A DNA stretch of 52,922 bases from positions 1 to 52,922 of the forward strand of contig JASMHR010000003.1 of assembly GCA_030750665.1 (NCBI GenBank), given 5' to 3'. The stretch comes from Candidatus Poseidoniaceae archaeon. GTDB lineage: Archaea; Thermoplasmatota; Poseidoniia; Poseidoniales; Poseidoniaceae. Shown piece after piece: positions 42,429-49,140 of this stretch. Numbering within the stretch: the first letter of the stretch is position 1; every line of letters starts with the position of its first letter. The notes beneath the pieces were generated by a model. It had not been told where the DNA came from, did not search any database, and saw nothing but the letters and a program-made list of their open reading frames with translations. The position numbers and the translations under genes were made by a program.

Positions 42429-42983
42429 ATGGTACTCGTGGTTGCGGCGGTAGGGATGCCGGGTTGTGGCAAAGGAGAGTTGTCAGCATTGGTCAAAGCA
42501 GCGGGCATTCCAGTATTCTCGATGGGTGATATGATTCGAGCAGAAGTCGAAGCCCGCAACCTCGATGGCGACCCCCATGTATTTGGGAGGGTTGCACAAG
42601 AGTTACGCGACGAGTTTGGATATGGAGTTCTGGCGAGTCGTTTGGCTCCACATATTGAATCTGCCTTGGCTGGTAGCCAATTGGTATTGATAGAAGGGAT
42701 GAGGGGAGTCGATGAGAAGGATATCTTCCTTGAGCATTGGCCGAATTTCAAGGTCGTTGCTGTGGTTGTTGAAGCAGATATCAGGTTTGACAGGATTTCT
42801 CTTAGAGGAAGGGCTGAGGATGGAGACAGGGCAGCATTTGACAGACGCGATGATAGAGAATTGAGTTGGGGTGTAGGTGAACTCATTGCCGGCGCTGATT
42901 GGAGCCTAGATAACTCAGGCGACCTAGAAACTTTCAATAATCTCTCTGAACAGTGGCTAAAAGCACTGTTCCCGAGTCACTGA
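42429..42983 (+). CDS. Archaeal adenylate-kinase-like P-loop nucleotide kinase (UPF0200-like)
   Basis: 184 aa; VVAAVGMPGCGKGELSALVKAAGIPVFSMGDMIRAEVEAR...VLIEGMRGVDEKDIF. Confidence 0.8.
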   Translation: MVLVVAAVGMPGCGKGELSALVKAAGIPVFSMGDMIRAEVEARNLDGDPHVFGRVAQELRDEFGYGVLASRLAPHIESALAGSQLVLIEGMRGVDEKDIFLEHWPNFKVVAVVVEADIRFDRISLRGRAEDGDRAAFDRRDDRELSWGVGELIAGADWSLDNSGDLETFNNLSEQWLKALFPSH

Positions 42984-43081: not shown

Positions 43082-44614
43082 ATGGCAAGGAAAAAGGGGG
43101 GGAAAGGCGGTGGTCGTCGCGGTCGCGGTGGCAAGAAACAAGTAGCATATGATGAACTTGACAAATACCCAGTCATGCCTCCTCATGCTTTTGCTAGAAT
43201 AGTTCGTGACAAGAGCACTTTGAACATCATCTATCAGATTATCGAACCTCCATTGAACAAGAAGGAACAAGAGCATCGTGATGAGTTGATGGACATTTTC
43301 ATCAAGAGTTTGACCGCGAATATTGACGAGATAGATGCCGACCCAGGCGCTTACCTCAGGACTGCGATGGACAAGATAATCAAATCCTATGGAATGAAGA
43401 TCAACAAGAAATCCAAATCCAAGTTGTTCTATTATCTCAGGAGGGATATGATTGGCTATGGAAAGATGGATGTTCTGATGAACGACCCGAATGTAGAGGA
43501 TGTTTCTCTTGATGGAACAGGCATTCCAATCTTCGCTTATCATCGTAAGTTCGAATCTGTCGAAACCACATGTTCGTGGGATACTGATGACGAACTCGAA
43601 TCATATATCATCAAGTTGGCTCAACGTTGCGGAAAGCACATCTCTGTTGCAGATCCATTGCTTGATGCAACTTTGATGGATGGTTCCCGTATCGTCATGA
43701 AACTAGGATATGAGATTTCCACGCGGGGCTCTTGTTTCTGTATCCGACGTTTCAAGGAAGACCCGTTTTCTCCATGCGACATCGTTGCTTTCCGAACCAT
43801 GTCATCTTTGATGGTGGCCTATCTTTGGATAGCATTCCAGAATGAAGTACCGATGCTATTCGTAGGTGGTACGGCCTCAGGAAAGACAACAACTCTCAAT
43901 GCCATGTGTATCTTTATTCCATGGCAGATGAAGATTGTCAGCATTGAATCAACTCGTGAAGTTAACATTCCTCAACCCAACTGGGTTCCAGGATTGACCA
44001 GGCAAGGATTCGGGGGTGAATCGAGCGAAGGTGAGATAGGGGAGTTCGAATTGCTCAAGGCGGCCCTTCGTGAACGACCAGAATACATCATTGTGGGTGA
44101 GATTCGTGGTGCTGAAGCCTATGTTTTGTTCCAGGCAATGGCTACTGGGCACTGTGCATACTCTACTGTTCACGCCGATTCAGTACCGTCTCTTGTCCAT
44201 CGTTTGGAGAACAAACCTATCGATATTCCAAGAGTTCTGCTACCTGCACTTGAAGCCTGTTCCATTCAGATACAGACACGTATCAATGGCCAACGTGTGC
44301 GGCGTACAAGGCAGACTGTAGAGATAGTTGGTATCGACCCGAATTCAATGGAGATAATCACCAATGAGGTATTCCATTGGGATCCTGCGACCGATGATTA
44401 TGTTTTCAGTGGTAAATCATATGTCCTTGAGAAGATCATGGTCAAGATCAATTTCAGTCAGGATGAGATGCGTCGAGAGTTGAGAACAAGAAAGCGCATT
44501 CTTGAATGGATGGTATTGAATGACATCCGCAAGGCCGATCAGGTATCACAAATCGTCACTGAATATTATGTGAGGCCAAACGAGATCCTTGCTCGGGTTG
44601 ACGGATTGCGATGA
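43082..44614 (+). CDS. Type II/IV secretion / archaeal pilus assembly ATPase (GspE/TadA/FlaI-like)
   Basis: PMLFVGGTASGKTTTLNAMCIFIPWQMKIVSIESTREVNIPQPNWVPGLTRQGFGG, ALRERPEYIIVGEIRGAEAYVLFQAMATGHCAYSTVHAD. Start at ATG 43082 (MARKKGGKGGG). Confidence 0.95.
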   Translation: MARKKGGKGGGRRGRGGKKQVAYDELDKYPVMPPHAFARIVRDKSTLNIIYQIIEPPLNKKEQEHRDELMDIFIKSLTANIDEIDADPGAYLRTAMDKIIKSYGMKINKKSKSKLFYYLRRDMIGYGKMDVLMNDPNVEDVSLDGTGIPIFAYHRKFESVETTCSWDTDDELESYIIKLAQRCGKHISVADPLLDATLMDGSRIVMKLGYEISTRGSCFCIRRFKEDPFSPCDIVAFRTMSSLMVAYLWIAFQNEVPMLFVGGTASGKTTTLNAMCIFIPWQMKIVSIESTREVNIPQPNWVPGLTRQGFGGESSEGEIGEFELLKAALRERPEYIIVGEIRGAEAYVLFQAMATGHCAYSTVHADSVPSLVHRLENKPIDIPRVLLPALEACSIQIQTRINGQRVRRTRQTVEIVGIDPNSMEIITNEVFHWDPATDDYVFSGKSYVLEKIMVKINFSQDEMRRELRTRKRILEWMVLNDIRKADQVSQIVTEYYVRPNEILARVDGLR

Positions 44615-44634
44615 ACTCGGGAAGTGATGCATAG

Positions 44635-45660
44635 ATGGAGTTGACGGCCTGGCAGAAAATCTGTCACAGAACCGTTGGCAAGATTGTGAAGAAGAAGGCT
44701 CGCAATGACAAGGAACTCTGCAAGACTCTTGAGCAAGGTGCTTTTCCAGTGATGGCCGATGTCTATCTTGCTACCAATATTGTCACATCAATTGCTGTCT
44801 TCTTGATATGCATTGGAGTGATTGCAATAGTCTTCTTTCCTGCCATTGGAGTAATTGCGATTTACGAGAGCGTTCAGGACCCCGATTCTGAGACGCCATG
44901 TAAAATCTGGGAATATTGGAATCCGGAGAAGAAGGCGGCGAATTATGACCAGCCAGGGCATGGCTGTCCAGATTACAAAACATTGGAGTTTCCAACATAT
45001 CTCAAGATACTGATACCGGTCATGTGTGGATTAGTGATTCCCCTCTTGGCTTTCCGGTATTTCAAGGGTTCAGCGAAACGAATGGCCAAGAAACGAGGTA
45101 TGCAATTAGAGAAATATCTCCCTTATGCCGCTTCATATACAGCGGCGATGTCTGCAGCCAATGCAACACCTTCGAAGATTTTCCGTTCTTTGGCATTGAA
45201 CGAAGATATCTATGGGGATATCGCCTATGATTCATCATTGATTTATCGTGATGTGACATTATTGGGATATGACTTGTTGACGGCGATTAAACTATCCGTC
45301 GCTCGTGCTGCATCTCCTTGGTTGACTGAGTTCTTTCAAGGAATGGTTGGAACATTGACTTCAGGTGGAAATTTGAAGTTGTATTTCCTTAATCGTGCCG
45401 AACATTACATGCGTGAGAATCGAACGAGATTGCAAGTCTTCCTTGAGACTTTGGCGATGTTGGCAGAATCATATGTCGTGGTTGCAGTAGCGATGCCGCT
45501 GTTCCTGATCGTCATGCTGGTCATCATGTTCTGGGTTTCTGGTTCCGGCTCTCAGATGTCTGAGAGTTTCTTGTATACCATTATCATGGGAGTCATTCCA
45601 GCCATCCACGTTGCCTATGCTCTCTTGGTATGGACGATGAGTGAAGAACAGAAAATGTGA
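44635..45660 (+). CDS. FlaJ/TadC (T2SSF)-like membrane protein 1
   Basis: 341 aa; TMs plus YLPYAASYTAAMSAANATPSKIFRSLALNEDIYGDIAYDSSLIYRDVTLLGYDLLTAIKLSVARAASPWLTEFFQGMV, T2SF-like. Confidence 0.85.
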   Translation: MELTAWQKICHRTVGKIVKKKARNDKELCKTLEQGAFPVMADVYLATNIVTSIAVFLICIGVIAIVFFPAIGVIAIYESVQDPDSETPCKIWEYWNPEKKAANYDQPGHGCPDYKTLEFPTYLKILIPVMCGLVIPLLAFRYFKGSAKRMAKKRGMQLEKYLPYAASYTAAMSAANATPSKIFRSLALNEDIYGDIAYDSSLIYRDVTLLGYDLLTAIKLSVARAASPWLTEFFQGMVGTLTSGGNLKLYFLNRAEHYMRENRTRLQVFLETLAMLAESYVVVAVAMPLFLIVMLVIMFWVSGSGSQMSESFLYTIIMGVIPAIHVAYALLVWTMSEEQKM

Positions 45661-47519
45661 CAGGAGGTGATAGATTGGCGCGCAAGAAGGAGAAACTCAA
45701 GGTCAATCTTGAACTTCCAAAGAACGACACGACGATGACCAAATTGTATCTCATTCTCGGATTAGGGATGATATTAGGAATCTCGAGCATAGGTTTCTGG
45801 TTCATCAATTCGCCATTCTTACCTACTCCTAATGGGCAGCCAATGTTCATCAATATCGCTTGTGGTTGGGATCCTACCTTTCAACCCGATCTTGATTCGA
45901 ATGAATCATGTGACCTGATGCATGATGAGCCACAAGTTTCAGTCTTCGAAGCACCTCAGCCATGGAAAAAGGTCTTGGCAGAAGGACAGAGATTCACTGC
46001 TCCAGGATTATTACCTGAAGAACGAGGAAATTATTCCGGGCAACTAACTCAAGCTTTTGAATTGAAATGTGAAGCTAAAGCCGATGTTGAACTTCCGTAT
46101 ACCTTGGAGTTATGGGATTCTGAAAAGAATGTGATTGCTTCGAAACAGGATGGCATCACCAATCGTGGAGGTTGCAGTCTGAAACATGACCATGTAGAAC
46201 CTGGAGAGGAGTATTCGTACGTATTGTATTCCAATGACCCTGGGGGAGAGAAAATACGTGAGTTCACCTTTTCCTTGCATATCGAGGTCTATGATGGGGT
46301 TCCAGAGTACATGAACAACAAATCTCTGTGGCTGGGACCTGAGTTGGACCTTGGAATTACCTCATTCCGCCCCACATTATTCCTGAATTTCTTTGGTTTG
46401 GGGATATTTATTGCATTCTTCCCTGCTTCTTATTATTGGGATGGGGTAAAGAATCGAATCAATTCGATGGAAGATAAGTTCCCTGATTTTCTGCGAGACA
46501 TGGCTGAATACTGGAAAGGAGGTTTGTCGATGAACGTCGCGGTTCAAACTTTAGCCAGTTCGGAATATGGGGCCTTGAATGACGAAGTCAAGAAGATGGC
46601 CGATCAATTATCTTGGGGCGTAGCCTTCGGTGACGTAATGCAATTGTTCGCGGACCGTGTTGGGACTCCTCTAGTGAAGCGAGCGATCAGTCTGATTCAA
46701 GAAGCCAACAAAGCGGGTGGAAAGATTTCAGATATTCTAGTGACCGCAGCCAATGACAGCCGTGAGATCAAGTTCTTGGAAGGTGAGAGAAAACGAGCCA
46801 TCGCCTCCTATATCGCAGTCATTTGGGTTTCATACATGGTTTTCTTGGGGGTCATCGTGGTATTGGGCAAGGTTTTCATTCCCGCGATCGCAAGTTCCAA
46901 TTCTGGTGACGACGAAGGTGGAGAAGGAGATGATGGATCAGCGAAACTTGGGAACATGGAGATCAGAGCCATAGATCCACTATTCTTCCTGATGGTCTTC
47001 TATTACGGTGTCACTCTACAGGCTGTCGGCAATGGCTGCATGGCTGGTTTGATGGCCACGGGGAGATTAAGTTCGGGAATGAAACACGCTGGAATGATGA
47101 TTGTTCTTGCTTCATTAGCTTTCAATTTCGTTGTTTTCGCACCTGAATTGATTGGTATTCAACCCCCAGAGGAAATAGATGTCAGGGCTGGAACCTTTGA
47201 GCCAACGATGAGTATTCAGAACACTGCGCCCATAGCAACAAATTTGATGCTGTTACCCGCTACTCCAACGAATAGTGATGATTTGGAAGTCTCGTACGCA
47301 TACTATGATGAGGACAACCACCCAGAAGAAGGGACTGAGATACGTTGGTACCGTAACGGAAATGAAGTTATTGTTTGGAGTGAACTAACTACTATTCCTG
47401 CTTCAGAGACTCAGGTTGGGGACAGCATCTACTACATCATCAGGCCAAGTGATGGCATCGAATTGGGTTCCTATACAAGTCTACTTGATGACCAAGAAGC
47501 AGTCACGGTGGTGGCATGA
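45657..47519 (+). CDS. FlaJ/TadC (T2SSF)-like membrane protein 2 with extracytoplasmic domains
   Basis: 620 aa; DKFPDFLRDMAEYWKGGLSMNVAVQTLASSEYGALNDEVKKMADQLSWGVAFGDVMQLFADRVGTPLVKRAISLIQEANKAGG; long region between TM1 and TM2, and C-terminal Ig-like TPTNSDDLEVSYAYYDEDNHPEEGTEIRWYRNGNEV. Confidence 0.85.
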   Translation: MTGGDRLARKKEKLKVNLELPKNDTTMTKLYLILGLGMILGISSIGFWFINSPFLPTPNGQPMFINIACGWDPTFQPDLDSNESCDLMHDEPQVSVFEAPQPWKKVLAEGQRFTAPGLLPEERGNYSGQLTQAFELKCEAKADVELPYTLELWDSEKNVIASKQDGITNRGGCSLKHDHVEPGEEYSYVLYSNDPGGEKIREFTFSLHIEVYDGVPEYMNNKSLWLGPELDLGITSFRPTLFLNFFGLGIFIAFFPASYYWDGVKNRINSMEDKFPDFLRDMAEYWKGGLSMNVAVQTLASSEYGALNDEVKKMADQLSWGVAFGDVMQLFADRVGTPLVKRAISLIQEANKAGGKISDILVTAANDSREIKFLEGERKRAIASYIAVIWVSYMVFLGVIVVLGKVFIPAIASSNSGDDEGGEGDDGSAKLGNMEIRAIDPLFFLMVFYYGVTLQAVGNGCMAGLMATGRLSSGMKHAGMMIVLASLAFNFVVFAPELIGIQPPEEIDVRAGTFEPTMSIQNTAPIATNLMLLPATPTNSDDLEVSYAYYDEDNHPEEGTEIRWYRNGNEVIVWSELTTIPASETQVGDSIYYIIRPSDGIELGSYTSLLDDQEAVTVVA

Positions 47520-47977
47520 AATCGCTTATCGATTCTGATGAGAAGGCGCAGATTCACGTCCTTGAGATGTTGACACTGTTCTGGCTGTTCTTCATGTCGG
47601 CGATATTCGTGTTGCGTATCGATGTCCCAGATCCACCTTCTGCTGCTACGGATGCAACTTTGGAACTCTCTGGAGAGGATGCGATTAGAATGGCAAGGGC
47701 AGAACTCCCTCTCAACTCAAGTGCTGCTGATTCGCTATTGGTGGAGCATCTTGCTGATAGAAATCTAGATTCAGCCTGTGACTTGATACTCGACGGTCTG
47801 GGTGCGACTGTGGATGGAAGGTGTTGGTTGGCCATGGATGGTTCAGCATCCGAGGTTCATGGGGGCTCCACTTCACCACTTGGGCGAACTGAAACAGTTC
47901 ATGCAATGCTACAGCAGGGCCCACACCTATGGACCATTTCACTTGATGTCTGGCACCGAGGAGGTGGCTCTTCATGA
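47516..47977 (+). CDS. Pilin-like small membrane protein A
   Basis: 153 aa; SDEKAQIHVLEMLTLFWLFFMSAIFVL resembles a class III (type IV pilin) signal segment; ATGA overlaps both sides. Confidence 0.65.
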   Translation: MKSLIDSDEKAQIHVLEMLTLFWLFFMSAIFVLRIDVPDPPSAATDATLELSGEDAIRMARAELPLNSSAADSLLVEHLADRNLDSACDLILDGLGATVDGRCWLAMDGSASEVHGGSTSPLGRTETVHAMLQQGPHLWTISLDVWHRGGGSS

Positions 47978-48426
47978 AGAAACATTCAGTTGTTGACAGA
48001 GACTCAGATTCTTCTGAAGCGGGTCAGATGCTGTTGGCAGCAGGAATGGTTCTGCTGATGTCATTGTTGTCGATGGCAGTATATGGGGTGAAATTGGCGG
48101 GATTGGGAACCCCTCATGACTCAACTGAAGATGCTCTCATCGATGTTGCCAAAGAACTGCAGCGTGACTTTTCACCATTGCTGGAGCAACGCACCTTGAA
48201 TCGAATCGATGCCGGAATGGATTGGCAAGAAGCAGCAGAGAGTGCACTTTCTGCGACCCATGATGATCTGTTGCATCATGGAGAGATAAGAGGAGTGGAG
48301 ATCAAGATGTTGCAGATGAATGTGAGTAATGTGAGTGGCCAATTGACATTGACTGCTGTTGCTGGTCTCTCGGATTCCAAGGCGATGTTGGAGATTCCTT
48401 TGAGTGCTGAATTCACGGTTCAGTGA
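47974..48426 (+). CDS. Pilin-like small membrane protein B
   Basis: 150 aa; SSEAGQMLLAAGMVLLMSLLSMAVYGVKLAG N-terminal hydrophobic segment after charged residues; coupled to preceding gene. Confidence 0.6.
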   Translation: MKKHSVVDRDSDSSEAGQMLLAAGMVLLMSLLSMAVYGVKLAGLGTPHDSTEDALIDVAKELQRDFSPLLEQRTLNRIDAGMDWQEAAESALSATHDDLLHHGEIRGVEIKMLQMNVSNVSGQLTLTAVAGLSDSKAMLEIPLSAEFTVQ

Positions 48427-48465: not shown

Positions 48466-49140
48466 TCATCTAGCTCTTCGAGCCTCATTCCACTGTAGGT
48501 CCAACCAATGTTTGATTCGGTCGACAGGGTCAGCAACCTGACTCGGATCCATTGTTTCCCAACCTTTCATCACACTGAGATCGAGAAGTCCCTTCTGTAT
48601 GGCACGGATCCTGTCAAATGCCGCGATATAGCGATCGGCTCGTCTCCATGAGTTGGCATCTCTTTCTTTGAGCATGGAGATATGTTGATCTTCTATCTCG
48701 ACTTTCATGATGAAACCAATCGCCAAACCTCCACTCTCACGCCACTCCTCTAGCCAGCGATTATCAGGCATCAAGTGGACACCTTCAACCAGAAGGTCGA
48801 TTCCTTCTCTTCGTCCTCGGGAGATAGTAGCATCGATTCCAGCCTCGACAACGGAACACGAATCTTTCCAGTCAAGAACGGGGTCTCCTGATTCACCGGT
48901 AGCGAAGGAGGAACGATGTAGTCTCGGAATTCGATGCTCAGGGTCACTCGCCCTCATGATTTCTCGAATGGCATCTGTAGACATGATTCTAGAGAATTCA
49001 AGGCGTTGTGCAGCCTCAATGGAGACGGTTGATTTTCCCACTCCAGTAGTTCCAGCAATCAATACCAAGCGGGGAGGTCTCTTGTGTTGTCCCGCCACCG
49101 CAGAAGCATGCATTCCAATACGTTCAGCCATGCTCCTCAT
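48466..49140 (-). CDS. P-loop kinase, 2-phosphoglycerate kinase-like
   Basis: 224 aa; RLVLIAGTTGVGKSTVSIEAAQRLEFSRIMSTDAIREIMR...DLLVEGVHLMPD. Confidence 0.7.
   Translation of the reverse strand: MRSMAERIGMHASAVAGQHKRPPRLVLIAGTTGVGKSTVSIEAAQRLEFSRIMSTDAIREIMRASDPEHRIPRLHRSSFATGESGDPVLDWKDSCSVVEAGIDATISRGRREGIDLLVEGVHLMPDNRWLEEWRESGGLAIGFIMKVEIEDQHISMLKERDANSWRRADRYIAAFDRIRAIQKGLLDLSVMKGWETMDPSQVADPVDRIKHWLDLQWNEARRAR

Follow-up and report, generated by a model that had tools for sequence, protein, structure and literature searches.

What do five adjacent genes at positions 43082 to 48426 of an archaeal contig build: a pilus, a Tad-like secretion system or part of an archaellum? The window analysed here is the whole stretch of 52,922 nucleotides, contig C79 of an incomplete genome (G000; 71% complete, 145 contigs) of a Candidatus Poseidoniales (Marine Group II, MGII) archaeon. 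The genes encode, in this order, an ATPase, two platform subunits (FJ1 and FJ2) and two small pilin-like proteins (sm1 and sm2), and an earlier note, made from the sequence alone, had placed all five open reading frames (ORFs) correctly. We consider it highly probable, judging from the sequences, that they encode the assembly machinery, one half of a euryarchaeal type IV pilus system (clade 2 of Makarova et al., PilB3/PilB4-like) that is split over two loci in the Poseidoniales. Domains, gene order and orthology bear out the earlier description: a module that assembles a type IV filament, has a platform of two subunits and comes with two candidate pilins.

The ATPase and a platform in two genes

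The first gene (P0001; 43082 to 44614, plus strand, 510 residues) had been described as a GspE/FlaI-like ATPase. It is an ATPase of the secretion and pilus assembly type, and Pfam T2SSE matches it at 2e-26, together with a sub-threshold match to PilB3_C. Its translation shows the Walker A motif GGTASGKTT and the Walker B motif YIIVGEIRG. Its closest solved relative is the archaeal AfGspE (2oap, 3.8e-119, 401 bits), with 268 bits to FlaI and 120 bits to CpaF, and haloarchaeal PilB homologues share 41-43% identity with it. The NCBIfam model for FlaI gives 397.8 bits, which is under its cut-off of 550. The enzyme is of the PilB/GspE type, with archaeal GspE and PilB nearest to it, as expected of a clade 2 module.

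The next two genes, FJ1 (44635 to 45660, plus strand, 341 residues) and FJ2 (45675 to 47519, plus strand), had been called FlaJ/TadC-like, and the hidden Markov model search agrees: both are polytopic membrane proteins with one T2SSF domain each (6.5e-12 in FJ1, 2.2e-14 in FJ2), the two scoring 45.9 and 53.9 bits against a curated cut-off of 25.2, as expected for the platform of a clade 2 system. In profile comparisons FJ1 aligns to residues 30-322 of the fused, 679-residue PilC of Halobaculum (P 98.4%) and FJ2 to residues 440-673 of the same protein (P 98.0%), which makes the pair most readily understood as haloarchaeal PilC encoded in two pieces, its N-terminal half first. Loci with two tadC-like genes are already on record for archaeal pili of clades 1 and 2 (PMC4858521), and FJ1 matches were found in 206 of the 295 genomes of the phylum.

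The same genome holds a second cluster of pilus type on contig C101 (also L037:14659-17231), in which two small T2SSF proteins accompany a CpaF/TadA-like ATPase whose best solved match is CpaF at 218 bits. It shares with the window cluster an ATPase, two T2SSF proteins and its distribution across genomes, but differs in the CpaF-like ATPase, in much smaller TadB/TadC proteins (195 and 242 residues) and in having the ATPase last. This bears on the proposal that the window cluster is itself a Tad-type pilus with a heteromeric TadB/TadC platform. An ATPase family in common with TadA and two platform proteins of a single T2SSF domain each speak for that proposal, but the window ATPase lies far nearer archaeal GspE than CpaF, FJ1 and FJ2 align with one half of PilC each, and the genes beside the five included no recognisable TadE/F/G, secretin or TadZ gene; it is the C101 cluster that pairs two small T2SSF proteins with an ATPase of CpaF type, and this cluster is the more Tad-like of the two. 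We therefore rejected membership of the Tad family, which we hold to be very unlikely; what stands of the earlier proposal is the two-subunit platform, not the Tad label. Neither sm1 nor sm2 gave a Pfam match to Flp-type pilins or to TadE/F.

Gene order, small proteins and a pilin cassette at a second locus

The ATPase and FJ1 genes are separated by 20 nt, and ATGA overlaps join FJ2 to sm1 (47516) and sm1 to sm2 (47974), where sm2 also has GAGGAGGTGG upstream of its start. A third ATG overlap, claimed at 45657, does not stand, as the codon there is GTG. Most likely, FJ2 begins at the TTG codon at 45675, 14 nt past the preceding stop, because a perfect Shine-Dalgarno sequence (AGGAGGTGAT, 45662 to 45671, plus strand) lies immediately 5' of it, as read from AGGAGGTGATAGATTGGCG, and because the FJ2 of most relatives begins at the matching residue (MARKK... 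in the alignment). This start gives a protein of about 614 residues, against 620 from the GTG. Among the named organisms with sequences close to FJ2 are Candidatus Poseidoniales archaeon UWMA-0357 and Euryarchaeota archaeon UBA226, which places the host in Marine Group II.

Both small proteins, sm1 (47516 to 47977, plus strand, 153 residues) and sm2 (47974 to 48426, plus strand, 150 residues), have a short charged leader followed by a single hydrophobic helix, in line with the charged-then-hydrophobic N-termini seen earlier. The candidate cleavage sites, marked by a slash, are DEKA/QIHVLEM in sm1 and SEAG/QMLLAAG in sm2; the expectation of a prepilin-peptidase site holds for sm1 (A/QIHVLE) and in part for sm2, which fits the strict class III pattern incompletely. 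Homologous haloarchaeal loci read ATPase-PilC-DUF7287-DUF7288-DUF7261-DUF7266-DUF7289, and among these five domain families of unknown function (DUF) the best match of sm1 is DUF7288 and that of sm2 is DUF7261, weak likenesses that follow the same order. The value of sm2 against DUF7261 is 0.0021, under the cut-off, with a DUF7261 match in 10 of 17 orthologues. Orthologues of sm1 occupy the same position behind FJ2 in other Thermoplasmatota (E 1e-5 to 7e-17), as do those of sm2 where found (E 1e-3 to 4e-8). The AlphaFold2 (AF2) model of sm1, with a predicted local distance difference test (pLDDT) score of 81, combines an N-terminal helix with a four-stranded sheet.

The order ATPase-FJ1-FJ2-sm1-sm2 is kept in all 20 relatives fetched, far beyond chance, with identities of 82-96% for the ATPase, 59-85% for FJ1, 52-80% for FJ2 and 35-77% for the small proteins, a pattern that reads as a conserved motor with faster-evolving, presumably exported parts. 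Wider synteny is found in most relatives: an ABC transporter pair and a kinase lie upstream, and a kinase, an aldehyde dehydrogenase and an enoyl-CoA hydratase-like gene lie downstream. In the window, an AAA_17-type kinase gene (42429 to 42983, plus strand), syntenic in most relatives, precedes the operon, and a P-loop kinase-like gene on the minus strand (48466 to 49140) closes it; both are outside it. In a sample of 59 relatives, made up of the window's family (35 genomes) and its sister family (24 genomes), the cluster is present in 32 of the 35 and in 6 of the 24, respectively. A public record (L093, JAOMAZ010000017.1) titled 'Deltaproteobacteria bacterium AH-558-G13' also carries the Poseidoniales cluster and matches a genome of the window's genus (G002); its title looks wrong.

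Other Thermoplasmatota outside the Poseidoniales have the system in a single run, pilin (~300-390 residues)-small pilin-ATPase-FJ1-FJ2-sm1(-sm2). The upstream pilin and a pilin-like gene of ~150-180 residues adjoin the ATPase in L140 and L141 (sister lineages of the class), L143 and L146, and partly in L145. These five loci share with the window an orthologous ATPase, FJ1, FJ2 and sm1 and their order, and sm2 was recognised in L140 and L146, but they carry their pilins in the same locus. Poseidoniales have instead an unlinked cassette of three pilins of ~350, ~660-745 and ~157 residues, which in the window's own genome lies on the minus strand of contig C56 (C56:241-4030). Its first gene aligns over 295 columns (hhalign P 97.6%) with the pilin gene found upstream in the sister lineages, so that the two are orthologous, and its third with the small upstream gene over the N-terminal 28 columns (P 81%). 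The C56 pilins bear AVSE/AVSA-type sites behind a charged leader, the class III prepilins that a clade 2 system has in cis or in trans. The cassette occurs in 40 of the 59 genomes, the window's own included, and within the sister family in the same 6 of 24 as the cluster. The simplest reading would be a single operon in the ancestor, later divided in the Poseidoniales.

The genome also encodes a prepilin peptidase homologue (G000:C12:1682-2638). Such homologues occur in 42 of the 59 genomes, among them nearly all with the cluster or an archaellum, and in no genome of the sister family that lacks both; in one of them Peptidase_A24 and Arc_PepC_II follow each other in the proper order, both scoring a little under their cut-offs. 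With pilin orthologues in a separate cassette on C56 and a peptidase on C12, the idea of a compact or minimal system was abandoned. The haloarchaeal PilB3/PilB4 loci of clade 2 (Makarova et al. 2016, PMC4858521) are close to this arrangement: they have in common with it the PilB3_C-like end of the ATPase, a platform with two T2SSF domains, small pilin-like genes behind it, one of them DUF7261-like, and, as for PilB3, pilins in trans. The window cluster differs from them in a platform made of two genes, in two instead of five downstream small genes, in an FJ2 ectodomain of ~180 residues and in a pilin cassette at a separate locus.

Could the product be a secretion or DNA-uptake pseudopilus instead of a long pilus? 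The locus itself holds just two small pilin-like proteins, and the type of filament is not revealed by sequence; but the paired cassette encodes three more pilins of VSE/VSA type, almost every genome with the cluster has PilA-type pilins, and no obvious secreted substrate or competence gene adjoins it. A pseudopilus is on this evidence unlikely.

Several observations weigh against the assignment to a clade 2 pilus. A search of the sm1 model against folds in the PDB returned no pilin and nothing significant (best E 0.01), the likeness of sm1 to DUF7288 is weak, and the strict class III pattern fits the sm2 leader in some orthologues only. The distribution counts are raw, ignoring phylogeny, and the metagenome-assembled genomes (MAGs) are incomplete. 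The Tad/CpaF-like cluster and the PilA-type pilins share the distribution of the window cluster, and the pairing of ATPase and pilins is therefore ambiguous.

Three separate loci

In another explanation, the window engine mainly serves the pilins of the Tad/CpaF-like system, or a giant surface protein-pilin fusion described below, so that two loci encode two motors of one appendage. The window-type cluster, the Tad/CpaF-like cluster and Pilin_N proteins are indeed co-distributed, all three in the same 6 of 24 genomes of the sister family and in nearly all of the window's family; however, the loci are separate, and relatives in the class and the phylum hold a window-type system that is self-contained at a single locus. 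We find this explanation rather unlikely, and a clade 2 pilus with its own cassette remains the preferred one.

The relation to the archaellum is clearer. The earlier note had found accessory archaellum genes to be absent, which is correct for the window locus, where no FlaF/G/H gene lies within or beside the cluster and archaellins (PF01917) are lacking, but not for the genome, which has archaellins on contig C123. The archaellum locus of these archaea contains a FlaI of 678 bits (cut-off 550), ArlH and a fused FlaJ beside the archaellins. In one genome assembled as a single contig (G015), the CpaF-like ATPase is at 0.75 Mb, archaellins and FlaI are at 1.65 Mb and the window-type cluster is at 1.79 Mb, ~140 kb from the archaellum. 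Archaellum genes were detected in 7 genomes of the sister family, 4 of them also with the cluster; in genus g17 the cluster is present but no archaellum was detected, and in genus g14 it is the archaellum that occurs without the cluster. The Arch_fla_DE model (FlaD/E) had no match in the 59 relatives, despite the presence of archaellins, FlaI, ArlH and FlaJ; the archaellum accessory proteins of Poseidoniales are divergent or absent, and we did not use this as evidence.

A reduced or rearranged form of the 'archaeal flagella operon' reported for MGII would be a natural interpretation of the five genes, in that this operon was found in all Poseidoniaceae and half of the Thalassarchaeaceae genera (Rinke 2018, PMC6461757), near the distribution of the cluster, and the window ATPase matches the FlaI model at 398 bits. 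This score is nevertheless below the cut-off, the locus has no archaellins and no adjacent ArlH/FlaH, a true archaellum locus exists elsewhere, and the two occur apart from each other in g17 and g14. Membership of the archaellum was rejected; for the window locus this explanation is already refuted, and we give it next to no chance. The synteny check likewise supports the earlier view that the cluster is not part of a standard archaellum operon, given a separate locus and the same five-gene order in 20 of 20 relatives. The Poseidoniales archaellum locus (FlaAGHIJ, Tully 2019, PMC6336850) and the window cluster have homologous ATPase and platform families in common, but the former is a locus of its own with archaellins, ArlH and a fused FlaJ.

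Both Rinke 2018 (PMC6461757) and Orellana 2019 (PMC6864105) treated flaI, flaJ and tadC genes under flagella. The 'additional flaJ, flaI and tadC genes' of MGIIa MAGs, regarded in the latter as extra flagella components, are probably these very genes, which we assign to separate pilus loci. Our data suggest that part of the 'flagella' flaI, flaJ and tadC genes of the literature belong to the window-type pilus and to the Tad/CpaF-like cluster.

Outward domains, giant fusions and a probable role in adhesion

How would such a pilus work? The prepilin peptidase (C12) would cut the leaders off the C56 pilins, sm1 and sm2; a hexameric ATPase would drive the platform of FJ1 and FJ2, and the processed pilins would be raised from the membrane into a filament, with sm1 and sm2 probably acting as minor, initiating or tip pilins. 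The ectodomain of FJ2, together with an Ig-like tail in this genus, would point away from the cell and could tether the machine to its surface layer. The role is probably adhesion or cell contact, not swimming; adhesion is likeliest because the PilB3-dependent pili of Haloferax offer an analogy (PMC4858521), and adhesion to particles, as the earlier note had supposed, is plausible.

The most unusual leads are the outward domains of FJ2 and a giant surface protein-pilin fusion. Between its first and second transmembrane (TM) helices FJ2 has an insert of ~180 residues, which AF2 models as a beta-rich ectodomain (mean pLDDT 67); fold searches returned weak matches to beta domains, the best being TK-subtilisin (3afg, E 3.7e-4), with GOLD domains also among them. 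In other Thermoplasmatota this ectodomain is shorter or absent. A C-terminal Ig-like extension of ~100 residues (47217 to 47516, plus strand; residues ~521-620 of FJ2) is restricted to the window's genus (4 of 20 alignment rows, all of that genus) and resembles repeats of the large surface proteins of relatives, with E down to 1e-18. A genome from a different lineage of Thermoplasmatota (L145:5675-9682, G076) encodes an FJ2 orthologue of 1335 residues in which ~770 residues of Ig-like repeats come after the T2SSF core (323-565); this fusion is independent of the tail in the window's genus. Stops within the FJ2 gene were flagged in some relatives, and most fetched loci have an intact ORF spanning the query. 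In L051:8245-9780 (G007) the gene lies in two adjacent ORFs with the remaining operon intact, where an assembly error is possible.

Genomes with the pilus typically have one ORF of ~4,500-4,800 residues, as in L084:2328-15917 (G004), L085:905-14779 (G043) and, for its C-terminal part, L083 15822-20000 on the minus strand (G015). A signal peptide is followed by ~4,250 residues outside, a TM helix, a short acidic loop, the site DDEQA/VSPVIATILMVAITVV and a pilin of ~160 residues. The product is a giant surface protein joined to a type IV pilin through a canonical class III prepilin site. A description of Poseidoniales pili or of giant protein-pilin fusions was not found among the titles and abstracts listed in searches of the open-access literature. 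We tentatively raise the possibility of a surface-anchored variant of the pilus, in which the outward domains of FJ2 (the ~180-residue beta domain, the Ig-like tail of the genus and the ~770 residues of Ig-like repeats elsewhere) would dock the machine, and the prepilin peptidase would free a pilin and a giant adhesin from one polyprotein of ~4,600 residues.

Archaea of Marine Group II abound in the ocean, the literature surveyed reports no cultured isolate of them, and arguments that they swim and attach to particles build on 'flagella' genes tallied by family. The cluster is a real, conserved and ordinary representative of a known kind of pilus that was earlier blurred with the archaellum, and three loci are now told apart, namely the archaellum, the window-type pilus and the Tad/CpaF-like cluster. 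Pili occur in some lineages where no archaellum was detected, and archaella in others without the pilus, and surveys that count flaI and flaJ may therefore mix two functions. The window operon, the three-pilin cassette and the peptidase supply a concrete list of pilus genes for these archaea.

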